A stretch of DNA of 42,713 bases, taken from a virus. Position 1 is the first letter of the stretch. Every line of letters starts with the position of its first letter. The stretch covers positions 1 through 42,713 of IMG/VR virus record IMGVR_UViG_3300046529_000624; one strand, given 5' to 3'. A program made the translations under genes and the position numbers. Below the pieces are notes generated by a model. That model was given only the letters and a program-made list of their open reading frames with translations. It was not told the DNA's origin and ran no database searches. Shown in pieces: positions 5,555 through 36,004 of this stretch.

Positions 5555-6360
5555 AACAATTGATTTACCGCGGATTTGATTTCGTCGCGCATTCCGCCGG
5601 ATCGCAAAAAATCGCGAATGTCTTTTGTTGGCGGCGTCCAAATGCACGATTTGATTTTCAATTCGTCTTTCAATTTCATGGCGCCGACTAATCCAGGTGA
5701 TTCGCCGGTTTTTTCGTTCGGTTCATCTTTGTCTGAAACAATGACTACCGATTTCGCGCCGATCCGTTTCAACGTTTGTTCGACCGGATCGGCAGAACAA
5801 TTGCACGACGGCCGCCCGATTGCGTAAAATCCTAACGACAACAACGCGGCCGTTGACGTCGGACCTTCTGGAAGGAAAACCATTCCGTTGAGCGGTATTT
5901 GCGGAACGAACAATCCTTGTTTCGATCCGGTGACAGCCCATTTTCGACCGTCTAATCCGCGCAACCGAACGCCGACGATTTCGCCGAATCCGTCGCGCAT
6001 CGGAAACGCCCACGCAGCGTGACCCGGAGCCCAACACGCGCCGAGTGCGACCAACGATTCTGTTAAAACATTCAACGCGCCGGCTAACGCGCGGATTTGA
6101 AACAACGCAGTCGATTTGCGCCATTGATCGATCAACGACGCCGCGTCGATTTTCGCCGGCGTCGCGATCGGCCGCGCAACGACCGGTCGCCGCGGCGCGC
6201 CGGCGTAATCGTGAAACCACCCGCCGGATTCGCACGGCCGATCGGATTGAACGCGCATACAAAGAATCGCGTAATCGCCGAACCGGCACAACCAATCTGT
6301 TTTGCCGCATATCGGACACGGTTTGTCTTTTGACACTGCAGGCCAGAGTTTGTTCGTCAC
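5539..6360 (-). CDS. Toprim primase-like protein
   Basis: 273 residues from a GTG start at 6360 preceded by GAGGA, with TGA of the upstream gene overlapping as GTGA. The N-terminus has a primase-type zinc site (CPIC at 15-18, then C25 and C34). A Toprim domain follows: VFLPEGPTSTAAL (about 161-173) carries the catalytic Glu (E165), and VVIVSDKDEP (about 205-214) carries the D-x-D pair that binds metal. It probably makes RNA primers for phage replication, or is a degenerate primase lacking a full RNA polymerase core, since it is shorter than DnaG. No fused helicase is present; the helicase is encoded two genes upstream. Confidence 0.75.
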   Translation of the reverse strand: MTNKLWPAVSKDKPCPICGKTDWLCRFGDYAILCMRVQSDRPCESGGWFHDYAGAPRRPVVARPIATPAKIDAASLIDQWRKSTALFQIRALAGALNVLTESLVALGACWAPGHAAWAFPMRDGFGEIVGVRLRGLDGRKWAVTGSKQGLFVPQIPLNGMVFLPEGPTSTAALLSLGFYAIGRPSCNCSADPVEQTLKRIGAKSVVIVSDKDEPNEKTGESPGLVGAMKLKDELKIKSCIWTPPTKDIRDFLRSGGMRDEIKSAVNQLLWKKK

Positions 6361-6713
6361 AGTTTTTCCTCGCTTTCAATCAATTCCAAAATGCGATCCG
6401 GAATACGGTCCGCGCCGGCGTTGTGTTTTCCGGAACTGTTCGACGCCGATGTCGACCAGTAATGAATCATTCCGCAATGCGAACACCGCCACGTAGCAAG
6501 GATCGGAAGATGCCCATTCGAATTGTTCCATTTCGATGCGGATTTCAAATCGATGAATCCTGGAAGGTTCGCAACGTCGCAAATCGGCGGCCAAACGGTC
6601 GCCGGCCGCGGACGGCCAGGAGGTCGCGGCGACGACGCGAGCGCGAAATGCCGCGTCGGATTTAAAAATCCGTGCGCGAGCGAAACGATTTTTTGTCGGC
6701 GTTTTGGGATCAT
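6357..6713 (-). CDS. Hypothetical protein with one CxxC motif
   Basis: 118 residues, coupled by TAATG overlap to the helicase and by GTGA to the primase-like gene. The N-terminal half is basic and Pro/Arg-rich (SSPRPPGRPRPATVWPP). Residues about 75-86 read WRCSHCGMIHYW, a single Cys pair followed by His that may form half of a zinc site. No family recognised. Its position between helicase and primase suggests an accessory replication role, by context only. Confidence 0.5.
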   Translation of the reverse strand: MIPKRRQKIVSLAHGFLNPTRHFALASSPRPPGRPRPATVWPPICDVANLPGFIDLKSASKWNNSNGHLPILATWRCSHCGMIHYWSTSASNSSGKHNAGADRIPDRILELIESEEKL

Positions 6714-8449
6714 TAGAATGGAACGTTATCTTCTTCCGGAACGCGTTGCGGCCGCGGCGGCGGTGCGTCGCCGGATGCCGCATCGATCGCGCGTTGCACG
6801 TCGGCGGAATTGCGCCAACCGTTACGCGAAAGAACGTCGATCGCTGCTGATGCCGCGCGGAATGAAATTTCAGTTTTCACGCCGGCGCGTTTCAATACTT
6901 TCATTTGTCCGACAGAACAAAGATTGTGTTCGATGCGTTCGAATATCGCGTCCAACAATTGTTTGCCTTTGTGAAATTCGATTTTCATCGGATCGACGCC
7001 GTTGCGCCGAAGCATCGCCGATTGCTTTTCCGAAAACTTTTTACCGGATTCCCATCCGCGCGCTTTCGTCGGTTGCAATTGCAACACGTCGAACGGATCG
7101 ATTTTCGTCAAAAGATAATCCGCTCGCGCAACGATCCGGTTCCGGCGCGCTTCGGATTCTAATCGCCGCGCTTCTTGTTCCGCTTGCTGTTCTTCAAGCA
7201 ACGCTTCGTCCATGCGGACCGGCTTGCCGCCCGGACGGCGCGCGCGCGCGATCGCCGCTTCAATTGCGGCGTCGGTGATGTTGCCGCCGAGAACGTCCGC
7301 CGTTGTCATCAATTTATGACGGCCGGCGTTGCCGACGAAATCGACGATCAAACAAGACGGTTTCGAAGATTGTTCAATCAACGATCGGCGTTCGTCCGGC
7401 CCTCCGACGTCGTTCAATTCGGCGGCGATGTCGTCCGCCGGACGCATTGTGCGACCGCACATTTGAGCATACAACGACCGCGATTTGGTCGGACGCGCCA
7501 TGATCGCGACGGACACGCCCGGATCGTCAAATCCTTCTGTCAACACGCCGCAATTGCAGACGATTTGAATATCGCCGTTCGAAAATTTGCTCAGGATTTC
7601 GGCGCGTTCGTCGGTGTCCGTTTTGCCGCACAACCACGACGACATGCCTCGTTTATGCCGATTGAATATTTCAGACAATTGTTCGGCGTGTTTCACCGAC
7701 GACGTGAACGCGATCGCGCGCCGATCGCCGACGATGTCGATCGCCGGTCCGGCTACCCCTTGAAGGTTTTTTTCCGATTCCATTATCGCGGCGAGGTCTG
7801 CGCCGTTAAGGTCGCCGGCCGTCGTCCGGACCGCGGAAAAATCTAAACCGGAAACGTCGACCATTTGTTGATCAACCGGAACGAGCCAACCGTCGCGGAT
7901 CGCATCCAGAATTTCATAATCGAACGCGACGGTTTCGAATGCTTGACCCAATGCTTCTTCGTCGGCGCGATCCGGCGTCGCCGTCACGCCGAGCACTTTC
8001 AATTTCGGATTCGACATGAACCAATCCAGTGCGCGCCGGCCGGACGGCGAAACGTAATGATGCGCTTCATCGATGATCAACACGCCGAATTCGTCCGGAT
8101 CGAATTTCGTCATTCGTCCGCCGCCGTCGCCGCCGGCCGTCAACGTTTGAATCGTCGACACGACGACCGCGGATTTTCGGAATAAACCGCCGTCGCCGGC
8201 GCGGTGTTCGCCCATTTCCACTTCAACCGACAAACCGGCCGCGCGTTCGATTTTGTCTTTCGCCTGCCAAATCAATTCTTGACGGTGCGCGATGACCATT
8301 GCGCGCCGCGGAAATGCGCGTTTGATCACCTTCGCGAATAATATCGTTTTACCGGTTCCGGTGGGCATGACGACGAGGCAAGAATTTCCTTCCTTCCACG
8401 CGGCGAAAACACGATTGCAACCGTCGGTTTGATATGGGCGAGCGATCAT
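6713..8449 (-). CDS. SF2 DEAD/DEAH-box DNA helicase
   Basis: 578 residues. Motif I is MPTGTGKT (28-35), motif II DEAH (127-130), motif III TATP (156-159), and motif VI QMCGRTMRP with conserved Arg residues is also present, so both RecA-like domains are intact and ATP hydrolysis is expected. After about residue 390 the protein has an acidic-basic helical linker (EEQQAEQEARRLE) and a C-terminal region unique to phage relatives. The extreme C-terminus reads PEEDNVPF, strikingly like the acidic-Pro-Phe tip of bacterial single-strand binding protein. Phage helicases of this type unwind DNA or branched intermediates during replication and recombination. Overlaps the HD phosphohydrolase gene by 4 bases. 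Confidence 0.88.
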   Translation of the reverse strand: MIARPYQTDGCNRVFAAWKEGNSCLVVMPTGTGKTILFAKVIKRAFPRRAMVIAHRQELIWQAKDKIERAAGLSVEVEMGEHRAGDGGLFRKSAVVVSTIQTLTAGGDGGGRMTKFDPDEFGVLIIDEAHHYVSPSGRRALDWFMSNPKLKVLGVTATPDRADEEALGQAFETVAFDYEILDAIRDGWLVPVDQQMVDVSGLDFSAVRTTAGDLNGADLAAIMESEKNLQGVAGPAIDIVGDRRAIAFTSSVKHAEQLSEIFNRHKRGMSSWLCGKTDTDERAEILSKFSNGDIQIVCNCGVLTEGFDDPGVSVAIMARPTKSRSLYAQMCGRTMRPADDIAAELNDVGGPDERRSLIEQSSKPSCLIVDFVGNAGRHKLMTTADVLGGNITDAAIEAAIARARRPGGKPVRMDEALLEEQQAEQEARRLESEARRNRIVARADYLLTKIDPFDVLQLQPTKARGWESGKKFSEKQSAMLRRNGVDPMKIEFHKGKQLLDAIFERIEHNLCSVGQMKVLKRAGVKTEISFRAASAAIDVLSRNGWRNSADVQRAIDAASGDAPPPRPQRVPEEDNVPF

Positions 8450-23814: not shown

Positions 23815-24632
23815 TTGCCCTTACGATGAACGTGTCCAGTTTTTTTGTGTTCGTGCGCGTAAAATTCCAAAGTATGAACCAATCGCAACGCGGTTTTTTT
23901 GACGCGCACTTGCACCGCGCGAGCGATTTCTTTTTCGTGATCTGTCACGCCGCGCGAACGACTGCCGAACGTAATGCTTGCTCGCGCCGGATTCGACAAC
24001 GTCGCGATGTAAACCGTTTTCGGAGAAGGAAGGTGTTTTGAAATCCATTGCGGAATCGACGCGTTCGTTTTCAATTTCAAAACGGTCGACGCAAACGACG
24101 CTTTCATTCGGCCGAGATGTCCGATGATAATCGCCGCCGCTTTTTTTCGACCGCCGGCAGATGTAAGTATTTTAGCTAATAAGAAAATTTGTTGTTTCCG
24201 CGCATGACGAAAATTCACTTTCACCGCTCCCGATTTGGTCAATTTTTGAAAAATTTTAACCAGGTTTTCAGGATCCGCGTGACGCAAATCGTGATCCGGC
24301 AAAACGCCGAACAAAAACCGCGACGACGCTGCGATCCATTCGATTTCACCCGTCCGTCCGGAAACGTTTTTTCCGATGATCGCGCCGCTGCCAACGTCGA
24401 CGTCGTGATCCGCGGCGAGGAATCGTTTGCCGATTTGTGATCGGATTCGATCGGCTGATTTTTTACGATCCTTCGGCCCGACTTGTTTCATGCATTCGGC
24501 AGCGAGCAATCCGGATTCGTCTTTCACGATCATTTTAGCGTCGCCGTCCTCGCCGGTGCCGATCAAAGCGTTTTGCAAACCGTTCGTCAATCGGCTTAAT
24601 TCCCTTAAATCTACTTTTAATGAATCGATCAT
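23811..24632 (-). CDS. Minor tail/head-tail joining protein candidate (gpZ or HK97 gp10 position)
   Basis: 273 residues. Basic and helical, with an N-terminal coiled segment (SLKVDLRELSRLTNGLQNAL) and a C-terminal helix-rich part (EIARAVQVRVKKTALRLVHT) ending in His/Lys-rich residues. Length and basicity resemble the lambda gpZ / HK97 gp10 group that completes the tail end joining the head. Start overlaps the stop of the giant adhesin by 4 bases, so the adhesins are transcribed within the tail operon. Confidence 0.5.
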   Translation of the reverse strand: MIDSLKVDLRELSRLTNGLQNALIGTGEDGDAKMIVKDESGLLAAECMKQVGPKDRKKSADRIRSQIGKRFLAADHDVDVGSGAIIGKNVSGRTGEIEWIAASSRFLFGVLPDHDLRHADPENLVKIFQKLTKSGAVKVNFRHARKQQIFLLAKILTSAGGRKKAAAIIIGHLGRMKASFASTVLKLKTNASIPQWISKHLPSPKTVYIATLSNPARASITFGSRSRGVTDHEKEIARAVQVRVKKTALRLVHTLEFYAHEHKKTGHVHRKGK

Positions 24633-27600
24633 TTACGTTTCACTTTAAAAAATCGACGACCTAAATCGTTCGGCGTGTTCGTGTAAACCGCTTCCATCGA
24701 ATGATCCGTCGTCAAATCGACGATCGCGGATTGTCCATTCGTGAAACTGGAACTGTCTTGTCGCCATTCGGAAAACGTTTTCGATCCGACTATCTTCTGC
24801 ACCGTCAACGTCAACAACATGGTCGAGTCATAGGTGTTGGTGAACGGCGTCGTGTTCGTCGTCACGATAACGCAAGTGTTCGGAGGCGGAGGCGGATTGC
24901 CAGGCCCAGCTCCTTGCCCCTCATAAATCGCATTGATCTCGGCCGCGCTCTTGACCCTGTCGTAAATTCTGAAATCAGCCATTTGACTTCCGAAACCGCC
25001 GTTCGGGTAACTTCCGCTCGGCCCGGATGCGCCTTCAGGGTCGATCGGATTGAAAGACCTGCTATGCGTAAACGTTCCGATCGAAGCGTAAGGAGAATCA
25101 TCATTTACCACTTGAACAAAATCACACGGCACTGTGTTCGTCCCGACCGGAGCGCCGTCAAAGTATCCCACGACCTTTCCAGACGCAAAAGTGTATGCCA
25201 CGAAGTGCCAACCGGTGTCGACGCCGGGAGTATCGGCCGCGATCGGAACGGCGTTGGTCGGGAATCCATTGTTCGCCACCACCCATAAACCGAATCCGGC
25301 GCTGTTCCACCGGCCAAGATGAACAGCGTTTGTTTTCTGATCGCCTAATCCGGTGTCGAACAATGTGCAGTCGCTCAACCCGTTCGCGTCCGTCGCTGGA
25401 ATCCGATACCACGTGCAGACGGTGAAGTTCGATATGGGATTCAAACCGTTTAGGTTCGTGATTCCAAAATAACGCAACGGAGGAAATGAGACGCCTTGAT
25501 ACCCGTTCCGTGGCGGGCCTGAAACCAACGTCGGCCAATTGGTGTGAACATCCTCGCCGTTGTCCCCGTGCGGCAATATACCGTCGTGGCCGCCCGGCGA
25601 AGCGTCGGTGACGTCATGCGATCCGTCGTAGATAGAAAAACTCAACCACACTATTAACCCGTCGCCTTGGTTCGCGGCCTGCGCGCCCATCGGCCAGCCC
25701 GTAACGGTGCGCAGCGTGCCGTCGTAGTTCCGGTTTAACATAGGCAGGTTGGGATACCACGCCGTCAAATTCGTTCCGATCAAGTTTGTCGGATTAGTCA
25801 AATGAAAGTCCGCCGTTGCAATGTCGGTGAATTGTGGAGCGTTGGTCGTGTTGTGCAGGAAACCTATCTGCGTGATCGTCTGCGGAGTGTAATTCGTCGC
25901 TCCCCAACCGAGGAAATTGTTGACGCCGCTGATCGAGTTCCAGTCCTCGATCACGTCGGAGGTCGTGAAATTCGTTCCCGGGATGTCGCTCGGCGAAGAT
26001 AAATAACCAGCGCCAAATTGTGAACCGCCGTTGTGCGTGACGGCGAGGTTATTCAAAACTGCCCAATCCCGCATTGTGATGCTGCTGCATTCTGCCTCTC
26101 GCCGCGACACGGACAGGTAACCGTAATCAAACCCGTAGAAAGTGTTGTTGGCGACGAGCACGTTTGAGACAGACATCACGCCGATGTTGATCGAATTTCC
26201 GGCGACGTCCTTTAACCCAGGTTCGGTTGAGAATTGAATGCCACTGCCAGGGTAAACGGCTGCGCGCGGATACCACGGATCGGATGGCGTTGATTCGTTG
26301 GTGACCGCGCCTGTGCCGTGGAATATGTTGTTGTAAATATAAAGTTTTGTCGTGTTCGTTTGAACGACCTCCGGGTAAAGGCAAGAACCGGGCGTGTCGA
26401 ACACTTCGTTGTTGTAGATGAGCCAATATCCGGCGCCCGGTTGCATTCCGTCCGGGTGCGCGCCTTTAGTCGGCGGCGGTCCGACCCAAGGCCCCATGAT
26501 GCAGTTGTTTATTTCGATCGATCCGCCTCCGCTCATGTAATTGTCGCGCACACGTTCAATTATGGTGTGATGAAGATGCAACCCGCTGAAAGCATTTCCG
26601 CCACTCGACGGCGTCCACCAGACACCTTCAGCTCCGCTTCGGTCGTCGGCGATCATGTCGTGAATCCAGCAGTAAGCGATTTCGGAATTTGTTCCGAGAC
26701 CTGAATGAAAGAAAATTCCGCCGGTCGATCCTTCACCAAAACTAGGCGGGTCGCCGTTCACATAAGGTCCGGAAATGTCCAACCAAAAGAATCCCATTCC
26801 CTCAGCGTAGGTGTAAATGGCCTTCGCGATGTTGGTCGTCCCCAGAAACTTCCATCCCATGTTAGGAATCAATTCCCTATCGGATTTACCTGCAACCTGA
26901 AAATTGTCACTCCTAGCGCCGTCGAATTTCAAATAAACGTTTCCGCCGATGAAGTTGTTTACGGCGCGCAAGGTAATAAATCCCTCGCCGTGCGGCGCGT
27001 TCGTGGTCGCCAATTTAAACGTGACCGGCGCGCCGTTCGTTCCGCCGGCGGAAACGAACACCGTCTCGTCGTAAAGTCCCGGCGCAACCCAAACCAACGC
27101 GCCCGGTTTAATGTTCCCCCATGCGATACTGCCGAAGTTCGGCCAGGCGTTCGCCCAACTACTGCCGCTGTTGTCTCCGGTCGCCGCCAAGTCGATATAC
27201 CAAACGCTTCCCACGGCCGAAGTCGGCATGATGACTTTCTGGATCGGAGAGGACACGACGCCGCATTGGTTGCTTCCGAGCGCGCGATAATAACAGACCG
27301 ACCCCGGAGTCTCAGCGGTATCGAAATAAGTGTTGGCGGGATTGACCGTCGAAATAATAGTCGCGAATGAATTTGTGCTGCCGACACTAACCTGAACGAA
27401 CCAAAGGTCTGCGACGCCGTCGCCGTGCCCATATTGAACGTCGATGCCATCAATGCCGGAATGGTTGGCGGTGCGCGCTTGGAAGAACGCCGGTATGCCC
27501 GGTTTCGACGCAGGCTTAGACGTGAACGTTGAACTCCATTCGGTCGCGTAACTAAGGCTGTTGGTGGCCCTGACGCGCCAATAATATTGAACGTCGAGAA

Positions 27601-28159
27601 GGAATCCGGTGTTCGACGCGAACATGACTTCACCGTTCGTTCCAGCGCGGATACTTTGAGCGTCGACGAGCGTCGAAAAATCGGAATTGGTGCTGCGTTG
27701 CAATTCAAATCCAGTTGAAGCAGTTCCGCTTTGATTCTTCCATTGAGTTTGGACTTCGTTCGTCGATATGACCGTCCCGAAGAAACTAGCGGGTTGTTCC
27801 TCGCCCCAAACCGGAAGCAGGTTCGACGGGCTTGAATTGACCGGGCCGGTCGTGGCGATGACCCGGAATATCTTGTAGTCGCCTTCCAGAAGTTTAACGA
27901 CGTGCGTCGTCGTCGGATGATTATGAACGTCAGTCTCCGCCGAGTTCGTGTAGGTTGCACCGCCGTCGCCGCTGTTCTGAACGACCTCCCATAGCGCGGT
28001 GTTGTCGTTGTTCTGCCAATGCAACGTCACCGTCAACCTGTAGGCTCCGTTGTCGAACCCGATCGACGCGCCGGGGTCCATCGTCAAATTGGTCGGCGGA
28101 TTGATCGCCAGCGCCGGCAGCGCCATGAGCAGAAGCAGGATGATGCGCAACAGTCTCAT
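24629..28159 (-). CDS. Giant exported adhesin: FnIII, beta-helix, LamG
   Basis: 1176 residues from ATG 28159 (ATGA overlap). The N-terminus MRLLRIILLLLMALPALAIN is a Sec signal peptide with cleavage likely after ALA. Then: three fibronectin-III-like modules (about 25-310, e.g. DVQYYWRVRATNSL); a right-handed beta-helix/polysaccharide-lyase-like region (about 315-830, starting VWYIDLAATGDNSGSSWANA); a LamG-like jelly roll (about 833-1070, GLIVWLSFSIYDGSH); and a C-terminal repeat like InlB B-repeats (SMEAVYTNT). Such a protein binds or degrades glycans. The signal peptide is unusual for a tail fibre. Asn/Thr-rich style resembles Verrucomicrobiota exoproteins. Either a tail spike that crosses the membrane or a secreted cargo protein. 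Confidence 0.7.
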   Translation of the reverse strand: MRLLRIILLLLMALPALAINPPTNLTMDPGASIGFDNGAYRLTVTLHWQNNDNTALWEVVQNSGDGGATYTNSAETDVHNHPTTTHVVKLLEGDYKIFRVIATTGPVNSSPSNLLPVWGEEQPASFFGTVISTNEVQTQWKNQSGTASTGFELQRSTNSDFSTLVDAQSIRAGTNGEVMFASNTGFLLDVQYYWRVRATNSLSYATEWSSTFTSKPASKPGIPAFFQARTANHSGIDGIDVQYGHGDGVADLWFVQVSVGSTNSFATIISTVNPANTYFDTAETPGSVCYYRALGSNQCGVVSSPIQKVIMPTSAVGSVWYIDLAATGDNSGSSWANAWPNFGSIAWGNIKPGALVWVAPGLYDETVFVSAGGTNGAPVTFKLATTNAPHGEGFITLRAVNNFIGGNVYLKFDGARSDNFQVAGKSDRELIPNMGWKFLGTTNIAKAIYTYAEGMGFFWLDISGPYVNGDPPSFGEGSTGGIFFHSGLGTNSEIAYCWIHDMIADDRSGAEGVWWTPSSGGNAFSGLHLHHTIIERVRDNYMSGGGSIEINNCIMGPWVGPPPTKGAHPDGMQPGAGYWLIYNNEVFDTPGSCLYPEVVQTNTTKLYIYNNIFHGTGAVTNESTPSDPWYPRAAVYPGSGIQFSTEPGLKDVAGNSINIGVMSVSNVLVANNTFYGFDYGYLSVSRREAECSSITMRDWAVLNNLAVTHNGGSQFGAGYLSSPSDIPGTNFTTSDVIEDWNSISGVNNFLGWGATNYTPQTITQIGFLHNTTNAPQFTDIATADFHLTNPTNLIGTNLTAWYPNLPMLNRNYDGTLRTVTGWPMGAQAANQGDGLIVWLSFSIYDGSHDVTDASPGGHDGILPHGDNGEDVHTNWPTLVSGPPRNGYQGVSFPPLRYFGITNLNGLNPISNFTVCTWYRIPATDANGLSDCTLFDTGLGDQKTNAVHLGRWNSAGFGLWVVANNGFPTNAVPIAADTPGVDTGWHFVAYTFASGKVVGYFDGAPVGTNTVPCDFVQVVNDDSPYASIGTFTHSRSFNPIDPEGASGPSGSYPNGGFGSQMADFRIYDRVKSAAEINAIYEGQGAGPGNPPPPPNTCVIVTTNTTPFTNTYDSTMLLTLTVQKIVGSKTFSEWRQDSSSFTNGQSAIVDLTTDHSMEAVYTNTPNDLGRRFFKVKRK

Positions 28160-29244
28160 GGGTTCGTCACCGGGTCTCGCCCGGCGCCTCCATTGAACAA
28201 CTCCGTCGCCTCGGTCGTGGTTATCACCCGCTTCCATATGCCGACAAGGTCAACGTTTCCGGTAAGGATTGCGCCGCCGCCATCGAACTGCCCGACCGTG
28301 AACGCCGCCGCGCCGTCCATTCCATCGTCGCTATAATCAGTGGTGTCGCGGGCTGTGCCTTCATTGCCAGCCGTCTTGACTTGAATGAACAGTTTGCCGG
28401 TCGCTGTGTCCTGCCCGGCGAGCACCTGGTAGGATACGCCCGTCGATATCGCCCCGAAGCTGGTCGCCGTCACCAACCCGTTCCCGCCGCCGGTCGCGTC
28501 CTGCCTGAAGAACACGAATCTGTCGCCGGTGATGTAGATCGTGTATTCGCCAGTCGCCCCCCACTTGCCGACGACATGTTGATTGTCAGCCACGCTGCCC
28601 AGCTTCACGAACACCTGGAGCGTGAATGACTGAGACGTCATCGACAGGCTGGCGTTGTCGGCGTGGCTCAGGGTCTTATTGCCGCCGTCGAACGCCGCGG
28701 AGTTGTTTATCACTCCGGCAGCCGAGGCGACGTTGACGCCGACGTCCGTAAGGTCGTTCGCGCCGAACGCGTCCGCACGCGTCCCAGCGGACGACTCGTC
28801 CATGCGATAGAAAGAAATGAGATTGTCGGTGAGCAGACCGCCGCCGCCGCCACCGCCGACGCCGTTCGTCACGGTCAACGTGGCGACGGAACTGGCCGGC
28901 ATCGAACAAGCGTTGCTTATGACGCAATCGATCAACAATCCGTCGTCGCCGATCAACGCTCCCGTCAAGGATAACATCGACGTGCGCGCACCGGACCACC
29001 GTCCTCCGTTCGCGACCGCGGCACCGTTAGTCCGCCATTGATAGCTGAGCAGCGATCCGGTGGCCGTCACGCTGAACGCCGCGTCGCCGTTCGTCTCAAC
29101 CGCGACGGATGACGGCTGCGCGGTGAAGGACGGCGTGAGCCACGTTTCGGTGTTGACGATCGCCACCGAGTTCGACGACGTGACGGTGACGACCGCCGCC
29201 GAACAACTCAGGAAGGTCAGAAGTAAGGTGATGAAATATCTCAC
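28156..29244 (-). CDS. Exported Ig-LamG adhesin
   Basis: 362 residues from a GTG start at 29244, just after the stop of the giant fibre gene. The N-terminus (RYFITLLLTFLSCSAAVV) is a signal peptide; the Cys in FLSC could make it a lipoprotein. Residues about 35-125 are an Ig-like domain (SVAVETNGDAAFSVTATG, SYQWRTNGAAVANGG). A run of seven Gly residues (about 130-137) links to a LamG-like domain (about 140-355: FYRMDESSAGTRADAFG, SFTLQVFVKLGSVAD, DLVGIWKRVIT). Carbohydrate binding is the expected activity. Encoded between two other exported adhesins. Confidence 0.68.
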   Translation of the reverse strand: MRYFITLLLTFLSCSAAVVTVTSSNSVAIVNTETWLTPSFTAQPSSVAVETNGDAAFSVTATGSLLSYQWRTNGAAVANGGRWSGARTSMLSLTGALIGDDGLLIDCVISNACSMPASSVATLTVTNGVGGGGGGGLLTDNLISFYRMDESSAGTRADAFGANDLTDVGVNVASAAGVINNSAAFDGGNKTLSHADNASLSMTSQSFTLQVFVKLGSVADNQHVVGKWGATGEYTIYITGDRFVFFRQDATGGGNGLVTATSFGAISTGVSYQVLAGQDTATGKLFIQVKTAGNEGTARDTTDYSDDGMDGAAAFTVGQFDGGGAILTGNVDLVGIWKRVITTTEATELFNGGAGRDPVTNP

Positions 29245-29245
29245 G

Positions 29246-32200
29246 TCAATGATTCGTCCATGCCGGGACTTTCAATTGCAATCCGTTGTTCGTTACCACC
29301 AACCAAAAATCCGGAGCAGTAACTCCCACCGTGACAGACGTGGGGGCGGTCGACGTCGTCGTCATCGTCAAATTGGTTACGACGATCGTCGTGCCGAAGA
29401 TTTTCGGGACGGCGTTCGCCGCCGTTCCGACGCTGGTGTTCGCCGCCAATACCCCGCCTGCAGCTGACCAACCGTCACCGAAGAACGTTCCAGAGTGGTT
29501 AATCGTCCCGGACCCGAACGTGTAGCTCGACCCGCCGAATGTCATGGCGTGAGCGGCGCTGATTCTCCAATACTCTGTGCTGGTGTCGTTGTTTACGAAC
29601 ACCCAATTCGCTCCGTCGAAATACATTGTTCGTTGATTGCTTGGAATAAGCAGGCTGTTCGTCGACCAACTCAATTCGGCAATGTCTCCAGAATTGTTTC
29701 CAGTGAGCGGAGACAATTTCATGTGGACCGCGGTGATTGAATTACTGACGACAAACGGCGACAATTGATATGCGTCACGAATCGGATTGTCCGCGCCGAT
29801 CATGTAGTGGCTGAGTCTGACGCGGTTCGTCACGGTTATTTGGACGGGATTTCCGACGAAGGATATTTCGCCGGAAATTGTGCCGAACGGATCGTAAAAC
29901 ATCGACGGCGAACTCCACCAACCGCCGATTGAATTTTCACAGGACAACCCGCTGATAAACATCGGGATTCCGTCGCCGACTGGATTGTAAAAGTAATACA
30001 AACAACTCGTGATATGCAGTCCGGTCATGACAATCGGGTTCCCGCCGCCGGTGTAGAACGTCCACGCGCGGACGCACCCTTGAATGTTATTATTCGCGCC
30101 AATTACTGACGTTCCGCCGTCCAGCCCGTTGAACGATCCACGCACTTCGCTGCGATCGAACCTGCAGATATTCTCGTTGAACGTCGCCGGAAACCAAATT
30201 GACCAGCCGTTTGTGCCGGTGAATACGTGATCTTCGTAGACGGGCGGACGCAAACCGTTGTCCACCCACACGCCTTCGAGGTCGCACGTTTCTGCACCGG
30301 ACAAATCCAACACGATCATATTATTGTCAAAGGCGTGATAGATCGAGATGTTCTTGAATCCCGCGCGCAGCGTATTCAATGACACTTGGAACGGAGAACC
30401 GACCGGATATTGCTCGGCGCCAGAACTGCCCGTCGTCGCCGGCGTCGTGAAATTGCGGCAATCGAAAACCCTGGCCAGGTTGGTGTCCGGACCGCGTTGA
30501 TAAACGCTCCAAATCACCGACCCCACGGCGTCGATGTCGGGGTATCCCGGGCTCGGCTGACCGGCAGAACCGACGCGATATGCGCCTTCAAGGGTGACGG
30601 ACGCGCCGAACAATTTCTGCGGAATGTCCGGGAATGTTATCTGCGCGAAGTGGTGGTTCGTCCATGATCCGGTCGAGGCGTCCTGCAATTCGCCGGCGAC
30701 GATGTAAACGCCGCAACCGTTCGTCCCGTTCACCGGAAAGTAAATCGTTCCGCCTCCTCCTGAATTTGTTGAAACGTAATTGATCGCCGTTTGTATGCCG
30801 AAAGTGTCGTCCGTTCCTAAAACGCAACTAACGTTTGTGCAATTGGTCGACGCTCCCAAATTCAAAGATACTGATGTCGAAGATGTAAAAGTCGCGATCG
30901 TTGTCGTCAAATTCAGATGATTCGAACTCGCACCGTAAACCGATATGATTTTCCCAACATCGCCGGAAACAAACGCCGGAACTGCGCTGGTAAGAACAGC
31001 GGACCCGGATTGTATGTTCACGCGTTTGACGACGCGCCCGTCCCCGGTCACGCCGAAGTCTTTTACGTTCCAAATCCTTTGAATGGGGTCGGTGATGTGG
31101 TTGGTGACGAATCCGCCGTTGCCGTTCGTAGCTAGTCCATTCCCTCTCGTTCGCCCTAATGCCTCCTGCAAATTGGTGGATGCAGAAACCAAATCCCCCT
31201 CGATATCCACTCCTCCTAATTTGAATTTACTTCCGTAACCCGAATTCGTCGGCGCACCGTGTCCGCTAACTTGCGACCATGAGCCGATCAACGACGGAGC
31301 CGACGCTTGCACCGCGCCGTCCGGCGTAACGACGTTGACGACCGGATTGTTCGACCGGATAACAACGCCAGTGATTGCGTTTGAAAAAACGTTTAATGAA
31401 GGCATCCAAACAAACGTAACGTTGTTCGAAGGTTCTTCCGACCATCCGTCGAGGAAATACTTGTTCGTTTCGACGCGGAACGTAAACGCCGATCCGACAC
31501 GATAAACCGCGGCTGAAAAGTCGTTCGATTGATTGAACAGCGTGATCGTGTTCGTTTCTCCGCGTCCGACGAATTGATTCGATTGCGCGGACGACAAATA
31601 AAGCGCTCCAGCCGGATCGGCGAATCCATTTGTCCTAATGTAACCACCGATGTTTCCGCCGATGACGCCGTTGGTAAAATGAAAAAACTCAATGCTCTGA
31701 CTATCCGCCGCGAATATCTGAACCCAAGTATTCGTCAGCGCGGCCAGGTCGGCGGATGATCGTGCCATGCTGAACATCGAATTTCCGATGAACGAAGGGT
31801 TAAGCAACGTCGCATTGCCGTAATACATACTCGCCGAATTGCTGGAATATTCCGGCAACGTGTTCGTTTGCGTCCGGAAACGATTCGTGTAAGCGGTCGA
31901 CAAATAAATGTCTCCGTTCGGGTCGGCGAATCCATTCGTCTTGATGACTCCGCCGACTCTTGCTCCGGGAAGATAAACAAATTGAATGCTTTGTCCGTCG
32001 GGATAAAATCCTTGAGTCCAAACGTTCGTCGAATTAACGAAATCCGAATAAGTGTTCGCCAACGAAAATGATCCGTTTAAGAACAGCGGATTGATCAGGT
32101 TCGCGCGACCATAATAAACGCTGGCAGCGTTGCTTGACGCGGTCGCCGCCGTGTTGTTCGTCGGAACGAATCCGCCGGCCGCTTGCGCGATGATCGAATT

Positions 32201-33475
32201 CGAGGTCGCCAGAATTTTGGCGTCTTCAATGATACGAAGTCCGTTCGTCATAACGACCGCTTGCGCGACGATCGAATTAGACGCGTTGTTCAACGATGTA
32301 ACCGACGCAACGACGTTTGTATTCACGCGGAACGTCGATCCGTCCAAATTAGTTACGATTGTATCTTCGTCCGCTGCGATCGCATTCGCGACGAACACCG
32401 CAATTGCCGCATTCGTCGATTGATTCCGGACGAAATTCGAAACGGACGACGACAACGAACTAGCGACCGTGTTCGACATCAATCCTTCTGCGTCGATCAA
32501 TGTTCCGTCGGTGTTTGTATCGTAACGGTTCGGCGCGAATCGATTCGTTGACGCTTGAATAACCAATCGCAATCGCGTTTCAGAAACATTCGTTGCGGCA
32601 ACGGTCGCGGAGAAAAGAGAATTCGACGTCGTCGCGATCAACGACGACGATCGCGATTCAGACGCGTTGGTCGACGTTTGAACGTATCCGTTGACATAAT
32701 TAGTCGACGCGCCGCCGTTTGATTGGATTTGCGCGACGATCCCGTTCGACGTGATGTTGATTTTGTCTTGCGTGTTGGTGCCGGTGAAATTCGTTCCGAA
32801 TTGCCATTGAGCGCGCATCGAATTAGAAAACGAAAGGTCGGACGCCAACCACGCCGCGGACGATCCGTTCGTCGAATCGCGTATCAATTGAACGATGTTA
32901 TTGCTGCCGGTGACGTAATCGTTCGTTCCGACAAAAAGATTCGTGTCGACGCTGAACGTTCCTGTCGAATTCGTGTAAGCGGTCCGACCGTCCGGCAGTC
33001 GTCCCGACGCCGCGGCGATGTTCGTCGCCAACGATGGGCTGACTGGTGCGTATCCGATCGCATTGTAAACCTGATTCGATGTTACCGGTCCGTTCGTTCC
33101 GCCGGAAACAATACGCGTCACGAAAATGAATCCGCCGGATTCCCATAAATCCCAGACGTTGTAAACAGTCGGCCCACCGTCGTCCGGAACGTTGAACACG
33201 ACTGGCTGCCCAATGAACGCGTTCGTCATTACCCAAAATCCTTGCGCGAGTCGGTTCGTTGCGTAACCGGTGTTTTTGTCCGGCGTGACGCGGACCGCCG
33301 GTCCGCGCGTCGTCCATTGCCCGGACGCGGACCGCGACGGCGACGTGATCGGATTCAACCAAAAAACATTCGTGTCAAGCTGTTGTTGTGCGTTCGTATT
33401 GTTGAACGACACGAGGGCGGCGTGTGACGAAACGGCGATCGCGGCCGCGGCGATAAATGCTAAAATCTTTTTCAT
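29246..33475 (-). CDS. Giant exported tailspike-like protein with beta-helix
   Basis: 1409 residues from ATG 33475, which has AGGAC upstream and overlaps the preceding TGA. MKKILAFIAAAAIAVSSHAA is a textbook Sec signal peptide. The N-terminal half is Ser/Asn/Thr-rich with helical trimer-like stretches (SNSIVAQAVVMTNGL) and two 85-residue repeats. From about residue 800 a pectate-lyase-type beta-helix begins (WNVKDFGVTGDGR, then FGIQTAINYVSTNSGGGGTI), the usual core of phage tailspike depolymerases. The C-terminus (about 1320-1409) may be a trimerisation or tip domain. Role: receptor binding and glycan cutting; why it carries an export signal is unexplained. Confidence 0.72.
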   Translation of the reverse strand: MKKILAFIAAAAIAVSSHAALVSFNNTNAQQQLDTNVFWLNPITSPSRSASGQWTTRGPAVRVTPDKNTGYATNRLAQGFWVMTNAFIGQPVVFNVPDDGGPTVYNVWDLWESGGFIFVTRIVSGGTNGPVTSNQVYNAIGYAPVSPSLATNIAAASGRLPDGRTAYTNSTGTFSVDTNLFVGTNDYVTGSNNIVQLIRDSTNGSSAAWLASDLSFSNSMRAQWQFGTNFTGTNTQDKINITSNGIVAQIQSNGGASTNYVNGYVQTSTNASESRSSSLIATTSNSLFSATVAATNVSETRLRLVIQASTNRFAPNRYDTNTDGTLIDAEGLMSNTVASSLSSSVSNFVRNQSTNAAIAVFVANAIAADEDTIVTNLDGSTFRVNTNVVASVTSLNNASNSIVAQAVVMTNGLRIIEDAKILATSNSIIAQAAGGFVPTNNTAATASSNAASVYYGRANLINPLFLNGSFSLANTYSDFVNSTNVWTQGFYPDGQSIQFVYLPGARVGGVIKTNGFADPNGDIYLSTAYTNRFRTQTNTLPEYSSNSASMYYGNATLLNPSFIGNSMFSMARSSADLAALTNTWVQIFAADSQSIEFFHFTNGVIGGNIGGYIRTNGFADPAGALYLSSAQSNQFVGRGETNTITLFNQSNDFSAAVYRVGSAFTFRVETNKYFLDGWSEEPSNNVTFVWMPSLNVFSNAITGVVIRSNNPVVNVVTPDGAVQASAPSLIGSWSQVSGHGAPTNSGYGSKFKLGGVDIEGDLVSASTNLQEALGRTRGNGLATNGNGGFVTNHITDPIQRIWNVKDFGVTGDGRVVKRVNIQSGSAVLTSAVPAFVSGDVGKIISVYGASSNHLNLTTTIATFTSSTSVSLNLGASTNCTNVSCVLGTDDTFGIQTAINYVSTNSGGGGTIYFPVNGTNGCGVYIVAGELQDASTGSWTNHHFAQITFPDIPQKLFGASVTLEGAYRVGSAGQPSPGYPDIDAVGSVIWSVYQRGPDTNLARVFDCRNFTTPATTGSSGAEQYPVGSPFQVSLNTLRAGFKNISIYHAFDNNMIVLDLSGAETCDLEGVWVDNGLRPPVYEDHVFTGTNGWSIWFPATFNENICRFDRSEVRGSFNGLDGGTSVIGANNNIQGCVRAWTFYTGGGNPIVMTGLHITSCLYYFYNPVGDGIPMFISGLSCENSIGGWWSSPSMFYDPFGTISGEISFVGNPVQITVTNRVRLSHYMIGADNPIRDAYQLSPFVVSNSITAVHMKLSPLTGNNSGDIAELSWSTNSLLIPSNQRTMYFDGANWVFVNNDTSTEYWRISAAHAMTFGGSSYTFGSGTINHSGTFFGDGWSAAGGVLAANTSVGTAANAVPKIFGTTIVVTNLTMTTTSTAPTSVTVGVTAPDFWLVVTNNGLQLKVPAWTNH
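31571..32125 (-). repeat. Two tandem 85-residue repeats in the tailspike gene
   Basis: Copy 1 (31877-32125) runs ASVYYGRANLINPLF ... SIQFVYLPG ... KTNGFADPNGDIYLS. Copy 2 (31571-31834) runs ASMYYGNATLLNPSF ... SIEFFHFTNG ... RTNGFADPAGALYLS. Spacing and key residues are conserved while loops differ, indicating an old internal duplication of a beta domain. A weaker third copy may follow (FLDGWSEEPSNNVTFVWMP). Confidence 0.7.
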
Positions 33476-33810
33476 TGGTCCTGTTCCGTTATTTTGTCGA
33501 CGTCGAACGTAACGATAGCGTCTTGCGGATTGTCGCTGCGCCGACCGAACGACCATATTTGACCGGATTCGTCTGAAAATCTATCCCGCGGATCAACATT
33601 TGGAACCGACCGTTGATCGAACAATGCCTGACATTTTTCGCGGCGATCCTCGACCACTTCAAACGTGACATCGATGTCCGGAACGGGAAGGATCGCGGCG
33701 ACGAATTCTCGCCCCGCGTCCGGTCCGGTGAGCACCATTATTCGCTCACCGTGACCGGACATAAACGGCGCCATTGCGCCGCGTTGCAAACGTTGGCTTA
33801 GCGATCCCAT
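33472..33810 (-). CDS. Head-tail joining candidate (gpFII position)
   Basis: 112 residues. Starts MGSLSQRLQRGAMAPFMSGH and has strands (GERIMVLTGPDAGREFVAAI, DIDVTFEVVEDRRE, QDAIVTFDVDKI). Small size, beta content and place after the capsid and head-completion genes resemble the lambda FII head-tail joining group. No family match recognised; assignment from order. The frame overlaps the previous gene by 13 bases. Confidence 0.5.
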   Translation of the reverse strand: MGSLSQRLQRGAMAPFMSGHGERIMVLTGPDAGREFVAAILPVPDIDVTFEVVEDRREKCQALFDQRSVPNVDPRDRFSDESGQIWSFGRRSDNPQDAIVTFDVDKITEQDQ

Positions 33811-34424
33811 TTGACCTGATAGAACAATCCATCATTGGTCAAAACGTCGAGCACGTTCGTCGACAGTAACTGATATTGCGTGATCCGCGCGCGCGCGTAT
33901 CCCGCCATGTCTAGCAAATACGTGCCGTGAACGATGTTCGTTCCGTTCGCATCGCCGGACAACACGTTCGTCCAAAGTATGATGGACGAATTAGACGTGT
34001 TCGTGTCGAATCCGGTTCCTGTAACAGAACGGTTGATCGTAAACACTTCGTTCGAATACGACGCACGCGAAACGTGAAAATCGTGCTGTAAAAGCACGTA
34101 ACGTTGATTCGATCCGTCGATTTCAGCATACAACGTGTTCGTCGTGCTGACGGTGTTGGTCGTTTTGACCATCGCGTTCGATCCGTTCCACGCCTGCGTC
34201 ACGTTCGTATACGACGTGACGTTCGACCAACCGCCGGCAAGGTTCGTCGTTGTCTGCGATTTGTCGTTTGCGAGTCCGCTGCCGGCGATATAACTGAACG
34301 GCAGCGAAACGGTCGAATACGACGGATGAACCGCCGGTTGCGTCACCTGCGCGCCGACGTTTACGCCGAACAACGCGAGCGCGATCATCATGACCGCGGC
34401 AATCATTTTGGTTTTGAATTTCAT
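33798..34424 (-). CDS. Exported protein inside head block
   Basis: 208 residues. The N-terminus MKFKTKMIAAVMMIALALFG ending VGAQ is a signal peptide. The mature part is Asn/Thr/Ser-rich and beta-like (VKTTNTVSTTNTLYAEIDGS, YLLDMAGYARARITQYQLL). It uses the same leader AAAGAAAAATAATGAAA as the capsid gene. Located where a head decoration or major tail-tube protein would be expected; about 200 residues with a single beta domain would fit a tail-tube protein, but the signal peptide argues against this. Function unknown. Confidence 0.55.
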   Translation of the reverse strand: MKFKTKMIAAVMMIALALFGVNVGAQVTQPAVHPSYSTVSLPFSYIAGSGLANDKSQTTTNLAGGWSNVTSYTNVTQAWNGSNAMVKTTNTVSTTNTLYAEIDGSNQRYVLLQHDFHVSRASYSNEVFTINRSVTGTGFDTNTSNSSIILWTNVLSGDANGTNIVHGTYLLDMAGYARARITQYQLLSTNVLDVLTNDGLFYQVKWDR

Positions 34425-34438
34425 TATTTTTCTTTCTG

Positions 34439-34900
34439 TTAATTGGTTTTTTCGGAATCGCCCGTTTCCTGTTTCGGCGCGGTTTCGGCCGGATTTTCAG
34501 GAATTTCAGGTTGAACGGTCGCGGGCGGCGCGCCGGCATCCTTCGTTTTTCCGCTCCGTTTCGGAGCGCCGGCGATTTTGCCGGTTGCTTCCAATCGCGC
34601 TTTCCGTTGCGCGGCGATCGCGTCCTGTTGTTCCTCGACGACCGTCTTTTTCGACGTTCGTTTGTAAACCTCGGCCGGTTTACGTTTCGGAAAAGAAGGC
34701 GCGCCAGATGACGTCGTCGGCGTCGGGTCGGCCGGATACGGCGTCGACGCCGGATTCGTCAGTCCGGCGATCCATTCGAATTCGCCGGATGCGCGAGCTT
34801 CGTCCGCCGCCTTTTGCAATGCGACGCCGTCGAGACCGGTGTAAAGGTTGACCGGCTCGGCGCCATTACGACGCCGGCCGATTAGAATTTTTGCGTTCAT
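34439..34900 (-). CDS. Head-completion candidate with disordered tail (gpFI position)
   Basis: 153 residues from ATG 34900, with AAGGA 6 bases upstream. An ordered N-terminus of about 50 residues (NAKILIGRRRNGAEPVNLYT, LQKAADEARASGEF) precedes a Pro/Lys/Ala-rich, probably disordered remainder (KPAEVYKRTSKKTVVEEQQ, PEIPENPAETAPKQE). Placed right after the major capsid gene like lambda FI. Assignment from order only. Confidence 0.5.
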   Translation of the reverse strand: MNAKILIGRRRNGAEPVNLYTGLDGVALQKAADEARASGEFEWIAGLTNPASTPYPADPTPTTSSGAPSFPKRKPAEVYKRTSKKTVVEEQQDAIAAQRKARLEATGKIAGAPKRSGKTKDAGAPPATVQPEIPENPAETAPKQETGDSEKTN

Positions 34901-34909
34901 CAACGTTCC

Positions 34910-36004
34910 TTAGGCCGTCACGAGACGGACACCGGCGTTGTCGGTGATTGTCGCATTTGCGCCGCCCTGTTTGCCGGCGCTGACGCCGAACAGGATCGCG
35001 CAACCGACGAACACTTTACCGGTGCCGGGCTGCTGCCAGGCGACGCCGGTCAATTGCGTTCCGGATTCCTCGTCCGACATCGGATAGAATTCCATGACTT
35101 TCGGAACGCCGAGTTGATCCGCGATGTTCGCGTAATCCGGACGACGATTCGCAACAACGATGCCGCGCGAATCACCTGCGTAACCCCAAAGGTTGCCGCC
35201 GGCGAACATGTCCGGATATTCGCGAATCCATTTGAAGCCGGCCAGGTTCTGCCACAGCCGATATCCACGATCACCATTCAACGCACCGTAAAACAGCGAA
35301 CTGCGAACGCGATCGTCAGATCCAAGTTTCGACGCCGCCGGCGTGTTGATCAACGCGAACCGGCCGCGGTCGTATGCCTTTTGACTGTTCAATTGATCGC
35401 GGATCGATCCGTCGAACGTGTCGAGGTTAACATTGGCAATCGCCGATTGAACGTTGTTGGTGAAATTCGCCGCGGTGATTTTAGCGAGCGCCGTGTCGAC
35501 GACGAATTTGCCGAGCGCATAACCGTAATTCCGGATCGCTTCCTTATACAGCGGAATTTTCGACGCGATCTGAGTCAACCAACTGACGTTGACGACAACG
35601 CATTTAAAACCGTCGAGCGTGACGGGAACGTCTTCGATCAACGTTGTTACGTCCTGCGCAGCAGCTTCGAATCCGCCATTGTTTTCGTCGTAATCGCCGA
35701 CGATCGGAACGTGGCTGATTTTAGCAGTGATTTTGTCGCCCAAAACGGCTGTCTTGGAAGAAAAATCAGTGGCGAAACCGCCCGGTTGAAACAATTCCGG
35801 CGTTTCCAATTTGAACGCGTCGAGCACGTCCATCAGGATTTCCGGAACTGACAATGTGACGGCGCACAAACGCGCAGTCGGTTTGTTGAGCGTGACGCCA
35901 ACGAGGGTGATCAAAAGCAAGGCGTGCAGCCAATACCCGAACACCGTCATGATGGCGCCGACCGCAATCGCGGCCAAAGCGAGGAACAATTGGAATCTTT
36001 TCAT
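34910..36004 (-). CDS. Major capsid protein with hydrophobic N-terminal extension
   Basis: 364 residues. From about residue 50 it reads like an HK97-fold coat protein: VTLSVPEILMDVLDAFKLET, KTAVLGDKITAKISHVPIVG, then GDRGYRLWQNLAGFKWIREY and GYAGDSRGIVVANRRPDY. Its order after portal, protease and scaffold confirms the role. The first 45 residues are unexpected: MKRFQLFLALAAIAVGAIMT and LHALLLITLVGVTL form two hydrophobic stretches like membrane anchors. They may be a scaffolding or delta-like segment removed by the phage protease, or translation may start later (no clear ribosome site inside). Leader AAAGAAAAATAATG precedes the ATG. Confidence 0.78.
   Translation of the reverse strand: MKRFQLFLALAAIAVGAIMTVFGYWLHALLLITLVGVTLNKPTARLCAVTLSVPEILMDVLDAFKLETPELFQPGGFATDFSSKTAVLGDKITAKISHVPIVGDYDENNGGFEAAAQDVTTLIEDVPVTLDGFKCVVVNVSWLTQIASKIPLYKEAIRNYGYALGKFVVDTALAKITAANFTNNVQSAIANVNLDTFDGSIRDQLNSQKAYDRGRFALINTPAASKLGSDDRVRSSLFYGALNGDRGYRLWQNLAGFKWIREYPDMFAGGNLWGYAGDSRGIVVANRRPDYANIADQLGVPKVMEFYPMSDEESGTQLTGVAWQQPGTGKVFVGCAILFGVSAGKQGGANATITDNAGVRLVTA

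Follow-up and report, generated by a model that had tools for sequence, protein, structure and literature searches.

Predicted export signals on spike-like and head-region proteins encoded in the structural block of an uncultured tailed phage and its relatives

Gene content of the structural operon

The window analysed here, i.e., the whole stretch of 42,713 nucleotides, is the 42.7 kb record of an uncultured virus in which all structural genes lie on the minus strand. Four of these genes, referred to in the following by their start positions (34424, 33475, 29244 and 28159), code for proteins with a predicted signal peptide and are located between the genes for the major capsid protein and the tape measure protein:

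Start 42684, minus strand: gpA-type terminase, at the head of the structural operon
Start 38762, minus strand: lambda-type portal, after the terminase
Start 37315, minus strand: Clp-type head protease, after the portal and before the capsid gene
34910..36004, minus strand: major capsid protein of the HK97 fold, extended at its N-terminus by a hydrophobic hairpin (from PHROG, Foldseek and gene position)
35867..36004, minus strand: 46-aa extension of the capsid protein, a hydrophobic hairpin of two segments with positive charge at both ends
34439..34903, minus strand: head-region protein of 154 aa, encoded between the genes for the capsid and 34424 proteins, with a similar protein after the capsid gene in the relatives read
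33798..34424, minus strand: 208-aa signal-bearing beta-sandwich protein, a single conserved gene after the capsid genes (from homologue signals and AlphaFold)
34350..34424, minus strand: first 25 residues of the 34424 protein, predicted to be a Sec signal peptide with cleavage between VGA and Q (from the rule-based call and homologue alignment)
33472..33810, minus strand: 112-aa probable head-closure or connector protein, as judged by position and size
29246..33475, minus strand: 1409-aa signal-bearing fibre- or spike-like protein
33419..33475, minus strand: first 19 residues of the 33475 protein, predicted to be a Sec signal peptide with cleavage between SHA and A (from the caller)
28156..29244, minus strand: 362-aa protein that bears a signal and contains Ig-like and LamG (concanavalin-like) domains
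29197..29244, minus strand: first residues (about 16) of the 29244 protein, predicted to be a signal peptide, ambiguous between a signal peptidase I site and a poor lipobox
24629..28159, minus strand: 1176-aa signal-bearing protein, LamG domain at the C-terminus
28106..28159, minus strand: first 18 residues of the 28159 protein, predicted to be a Sec signal peptide with cleavage between ALA and I (from the caller)
Start 22224, minus strand: tape measure protein, beyond the block with the signal-bearing genes

Overlaps of 4 bases with the preceding gene are found at 33475, where the ATG takes part in the overlap, at 28159 and at the downstream 24632 gene, whereas gaps of 1 and 14 bases precede 29244 and 34424, respectively. 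Therefore, the statement in a sequence-only reading of this DNA that all four genes are coupled to their neighbours by 4-base overlaps is correct for 33475 and 28159 and has to be withdrawn for the other two. Promoter- and terminator-like sites in the block do not exceed the shuffled expectation and form no flanking signature, and Pfam and PHROG searches returned no family match for the 112-aa protein.

Export-type N-termini

Signal peptides were identified by a rule-based caller that looks for a positive n-region, a 10-residue hydrophobic core and an [AVSTGLI]-x-[AGSC] site, and which recognised 15/15 known signal peptides from E. coli; the cleavage positions given for the four N-termini were assigned by eye. 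All four window proteins were called signal-bearing, in agreement with the export-type N-termini first noticed on these head-tail block proteins from the sequence. The 34424 protein starts with MKFKTKMIAAVMMIALALFGVNVGA, followed after the predicted cleavage site by QVTQP, the 33475 protein with MKKILAFIAAAAIAVSSHA, followed by ALVSF, and the 28159 protein with MRLLRIILLLLMALPALA, followed by INPP, and all three display the hallmarks of Sec/signal peptidase I substrates, namely a positive n-region, a hydrophobic core and small residues at positions -3 and -1. These hallmarks are only weakly developed in the 29244 protein, which is translated from a GTG codon (MRYFITLLLTFLSCSA, followed by AVVTV) and has the weakest of the four signals, with a 'weak' site lacking a clean A-x-A and with a possible poor lipobox (FLSC). 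A C-terminal end shared among the four window proteins was not seen.

Domains, folds and composition of the signal-bearing proteins

The AlphaFold model of the 34424 protein is beta-rich and shows a beta-sandwich at modest confidence (pLDDT 67). Its Foldseek matches are weak and point to jelly-roll adhesin/CBM and viral folds; a family call for this fold was dropped, as the model is too weak. The 33475 protein has no match in Pfam, PHROG, the PDB or cultured phages and contains the stretch VKDFGVTGDG, a putative phage tailspike stretch. In the 29244 protein, PF13385 is matched above the cutoff (E=1.2e-7) and I-set below it, in addition to a weak match to a tail protein family (phrog_3995, E=4.3e-5), and PF13385 is likewise found above the cutoff at the C-terminus of the 28159 protein (E=2.6e-10). 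None of the large window proteins has a homologue in cultured phages, and among viral contigs the 33475 protein has one only in a near-identical contig and the 28159 protein none.

In the related phages, a signal-bearing protein of L008 contains a K1-lyase_C domain (E=4.2e-7, above the cutoff), and weak PHROG matches of about 1e-5 lead to families of pre-neck appendages (L008), tail spikes (L052) and tail fibres (L011). The content of Thr, Asn and Ser is high in all 27 signal-bearing proteins (mean 30%), and Lys and Glu together make up 3.6% on average and 6.4% at most, compared to 5.7-12.7% in 13 proteins of cultured phages, mostly fibre or tail proteins.

Conservation and enrichment of the signals

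With respect to the distribution of the signals, contigs of related phages were recruited via the capsid and portal proteins. In L006, L007, L008, L009, L010, L046 and L002, of which the last is a near-identical contig to the window, the capsid gene and its small partner are followed by a gene for a protein of about 200 aa. This 34424 family is syntenic, with an unchanged place in each of the seven relatives whose contigs extend to this region, and a signal is present in 7/7 of its members (the window's included), at 28-38% identity to the window protein. Signal-bearing proteins are encoded in each of the structural blocks read in seven related phages, further ones follow a tail-tube-like gene in L007, L008, L009 and L010, and additional ones are encoded in the later region of every relative that has it. 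The large proteins amongst them are without sequence similarity between phages or to those of the window, and each has a signal; that non-homologous proteins in equivalent places all carry signals argues for a shared need. Large signal-bearing proteins are also found in the tail regions of L011, L031 and L052. In L012 and L013, which belong to a more distant lineage, the mature parts of a signal-bearing protein are identical at 154 of 192 positions and the signals at only 6 of 20, yet both are still signals, which is the usual behaviour of working signal peptides. The three large proteins of the window have no diverged homologues, and their individual signals are therefore read from the sequence itself.

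With the capsid protein excluded, 21 of the 92 structural genes in the window's clade were called, as opposed to 3/48 genes in the rest of the same genomes, 0/63 structural genes in six unrelated uncultured contigs and 4/152 in seven cultured phages (p = 0.0096 compared with the remaining genes of these genomes and p = 8e-7 compared with the cultured controls, both being indicative only because the clade genes are not independent). Among the cultured phages there were no calls in HK97 (0/21), K1F (0/11) and B40-8 (0/17), nor in the two verrucomicrobial phages, verrucophage P8625 (0/24) and Akkermansia phage Moulinsart (0/21); for P8625, the SignalP analysis by its own authors likewise found none (PMC4642752). 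Calls were obtained for 11b (2/34) and for lambda (2/24), the latter comprising Lom, which is known to be exported, and gpZ, a false call. Such signals are almost lacking in these ordinary tailed phages, which supports the sequence-only reading on this point.

This pattern bears on the possibility that the signal-bearing genes are host-type exoprotein cargo, i.e., morons that are dispensable for the particle. Lom, a host-surface protein and dispensable cargo, is an exported protein encoded inside the lambda tail region, and it would fit a similar origin here that the large proteins are phage-specific and that the GC3 of the 29244 gene is 79% versus 52-69% in the other genes measured. However, the hallmarks of morons, namely their own promoter and terminator and sporadic presence, are lacking in the block. 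In particular, no promoter or terminator signature flanks the genes, two of them are coupled to their neighbours by the above overlaps, a tailspike-type domain occurs in one relative, the 34424 family is syntenic across all seven relatives, and further signal-bearing genes are present wherever the later region is. Of the two options originally proposed, exported adhesins or host cargo, the signals on structural-block proteins common to both have stood, and the second option has been weakened by this synteny and by the further signals in the later region; we consider it improbable.

A hydrophobic hairpin on the major capsid protein

The capsid protein was identified by matches of 10 of its 14 homologues to PHROG major head protein families (best 8.4e-18), by the position of its gene after those for portal and protease, and by Foldseek, where the best matches of the capsid body, from a low-confidence model, are HK97-fold capsids. 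Not contained in the sequence-only reading is the hairpin at its N-terminus. This extension is found in 8/8 clade members inspected, with 46-67 residues forming two hydrophobic segments and a short turn, and in the capsid model it consists of helices 3-21 and 25-39 (pLDDT ~80-90). Distant capsid homologues are without the hairpin and begin where the extension stops. An internal start that would make the hairpin an artefact is ruled out by the Val codon at the junction, which is GTC, GTG or GTT across six relatives: since the codon varies, translation generally cannot start there, and the extension thus belongs to the protein. According to the positive-inside rule, both ends of the hairpin would be cytoplasmic (N-in, C-in).

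The four other N-termini might serve not for export but as assembly or anchoring segments, either trimmed off by the protease that matures the head or hidden inside the particle, and the capsid hairpin is probably of such a sort. A Clp-type head protease is encoded upstream, and in a 2023 study of Porphyromonas gingivalis phages, in which signal peptides were reported for major capsid proteins as well as for five genes of unknown function, the authors suggested that those of the capsid proteins are removed by the prohead protease (PMC10367356), although the capsid extension here is a two-segment hairpin and theirs are signal peptides. Against this speak the classic n-h-c structure of the four N-termini with A-x-A-type sites in three of them, the retention of a cleavable signal throughout the 34424 family (7/7), a composition that points outside the cytoplasm, and the consideration that fibres would not be expected among the substrates of a head protease. 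Non-exported hydrophobic N-termini are therefore improbable, and both they and host cargo are less likely than export followed either by docking on the virion or by release as free proteins.

Attempts to derive the host from these data were not convincing. A Q after the predicted cleavage site, as in the Bacteroidetes Q-rule, is present in six of the seven 34424-family members and absent in the three large window proteins, which allows no conclusion; the hairpin capsid was found on a 3.8-kb contig of a single Hydrogenedentes MAG (1/68 genomes of the phylum), and distant capsids in two Acidobacteria MAGs (2/162 of the class).

Export and possible fates of the proteins

Judged by their N-termini, the signal-bearing proteins are very probably exported via Sec, which is the best reading of the signals, and part of the particle kit would thus probably leave the cytoplasm before the cell bursts. 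Late in infection, Thr/Asn/Ser-rich, beta-structured proteins of a binding or depolymerase-like type (33475, 29244 and 28159) would be made alongside the conserved head-region beta-sandwich protein 34424, and each would be directed by its Sec/signal peptidase I signal into the periplasm instead of into cytoplasmic assembly. Given the envelope type assumed here, the proteins would fold there and be held away from cytoplasmic assembly up to lysis, when the compartments mix and they might, more speculatively, dock on the finished particles as appendages, while the surplus might bind or degrade carbohydrates in free form. The capsid protein, in turn, would stay in the cytoplasm, where its membrane hairpin may let heads assemble on the inner membrane. 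As a whole, from Sec export and docking after lysis to the membrane-hairpin capsid protein, this scheme is plausible but tentative.

Docking after lysis is favoured because the genes reside in the structural operon and resemble those of appendages, and it is this gene position and the weak family matches that suggest attachment to the virion. The periplasm is the likely holding place, as there is no common surface-anchoring C-terminus and a lipobox only in 29244; anchoring on the cell surface is, accordingly, the least supported of the fates considered earlier.

Alternatively, the proteins might be exported and never enter the virion, acting in the periplasm, on the cell surface or as free enzymes or lectins that, e.g., digest glycans for release, block superinfection or bind debris. 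The signals and the low-charge composition as well as the LamG, Ig-like and lyase-type domains would suit such functions, and host outer-membrane modification by signal-bearing proteins has been proposed for the P. gingivalis phages (PMC10367356). In addition, a conventional tail-tip gene remains in at least one relative, L034, which has kept a lambda-J-like tail protein (5656-8205), so that receptor binding need not fall to the exported proteins. In contrast, the location of the genes in the structural operon, with 34424 fixed beside the capsid genes in all seven relatives, the matches to spike and appendage families and the lack of a shared surface-anchoring C-terminus are more difficult to reconcile with proteins that never meet the particle. 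Export without virion attachment is nearly as likely as docking after lysis, even if in itself rather doubtful.

A more novel reading, which we regard as unlikely, is a two-compartment maturation at the cell envelope, where capsids would form on the cytoplasmic face of the inner membrane via the transmembrane hairpin, and the exported appendages and head-associated protein would be added upon breach of the membrane. If true, this would be an assembly pathway not described for tailed phages.

Relation to known systems and implications

The initial view that no system of this kind has been described needs revision, as partial precedents exist in the P. gingivalis phages (PMC10367356) and in lambda Lom. 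The former, of the proposed family Nixviridae, are likewise tailed and have signal peptides from which their authors infer use of the host's general secretion; compared by description, their unknown proteins are discussed as host-surface modifiers, whereas the signals reported here are on spike-like proteins of the structural block (PMC10367356). Lom, too, is an exported protein encoded between tail genes, but it is a single protein, in contrast to several syntenic and spike-like ones per genome. A literature search of incomplete coverage, with preprints excluded, revealed nothing on exported tailed-phage fibres beyond the P. gingivalis study (PMC10367356), and within these limits no earlier description was found of Sec signals on tailed-phage spike-like proteins that are conserved in the structural block.

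Among bacterial proteins, WceF of Pantoea stewartii is similarly tailspike-like with an export signal and acts on glycans outside the cytoplasm; however, it is encoded by a bacterial gene in an exopolysaccharide cluster and exported via Tat, while the proteins described here are phage-encoded with Sec-type signals (PMC7949094). The proposed role of the hairpin resembles head assembly of T4 at the inner membrane, the only case in which membrane-associated proheads had been shown according to a 2011 review, except that T4 relies on a separate membrane chaperone, whereas the hydrophobic hairpin described here is part of the capsid protein itself (PMC3185693). Leader peptides are also present on the coat proteins pVIII and pIII of filamentous phages, which are virion proteins residing in the inner membrane, but these phages have no tail and are extruded without lysis, in contrast to a tailed phage with terminase, portal and HK97 capsid.

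Tailed-phage particles are taught to be products of the cytoplasm. If the present reading is true, part of the particle would be built, or a second set of effectors deployed, across the inner membrane. For annotation, this calls for caution: where an Ig, LamG or lyase protein encoded in a phage contig looks secreted, its gene may belong to the structural module, and would then be neither host contamination nor an auxiliary gene.

Signal-bearing and other proteins outside the window's clade or outside the structural block

Signal-bearing proteins are also found close behind the capsid genes in other lineages, among them the more distant one of L012 and L013:

L012, 11257-11898: one protein
L013, 11281-11928 and 12016 onward: two proteins
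L027, 6416-6919: one protein

These proteins, of about 160-215 aa, have no sequence relation to the 34424 family, the signal-bearing proteins of about 200 aa that follow the capsid genes in the window and its relatives. The opposite end of the genome, outside the structural block, encodes two further small proteins, of which one has a Sec-type (MKRIIFIIVAAIATIAAVQS) and one a lipoprotein-type N-terminus (MKTLIALMLAACLTQTGC):

3320-2973 and 3605-3321, minus strand: the two small proteins

Past the tail genes, an adjoining gene pair is likely to encode lysis functions. A separate protein carries a PKD domain close to its C-terminus and lacks a signal peptide:

17653-17198 and 18006-17650, minus strand: lipoprotein-like protein (LTGCAVL) and membrane protein
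19499-18021, minus strand: 492-aa protein with PKD domain (PF00801, E=7e-22)

Capsid hairpin and a possible host clue

35867-36004, minus strand: two-segment hydrophobic hairpin, N-terminus of the HK97-fold major capsid protein

This hairpin, which recurs in the relatives L006-L010 and L046 as well as in L033, is confined to the window's clade, and the AR-x-C-A-V junction at its end, conserved in most clade members, could be a head-protease site. L033, a 3.8 kb contig encoding a phage portal, a protease and the hairpin capsid, was binned in a Hydrogenedentes MAG, which gives a possible but weak clue to a host in this group.
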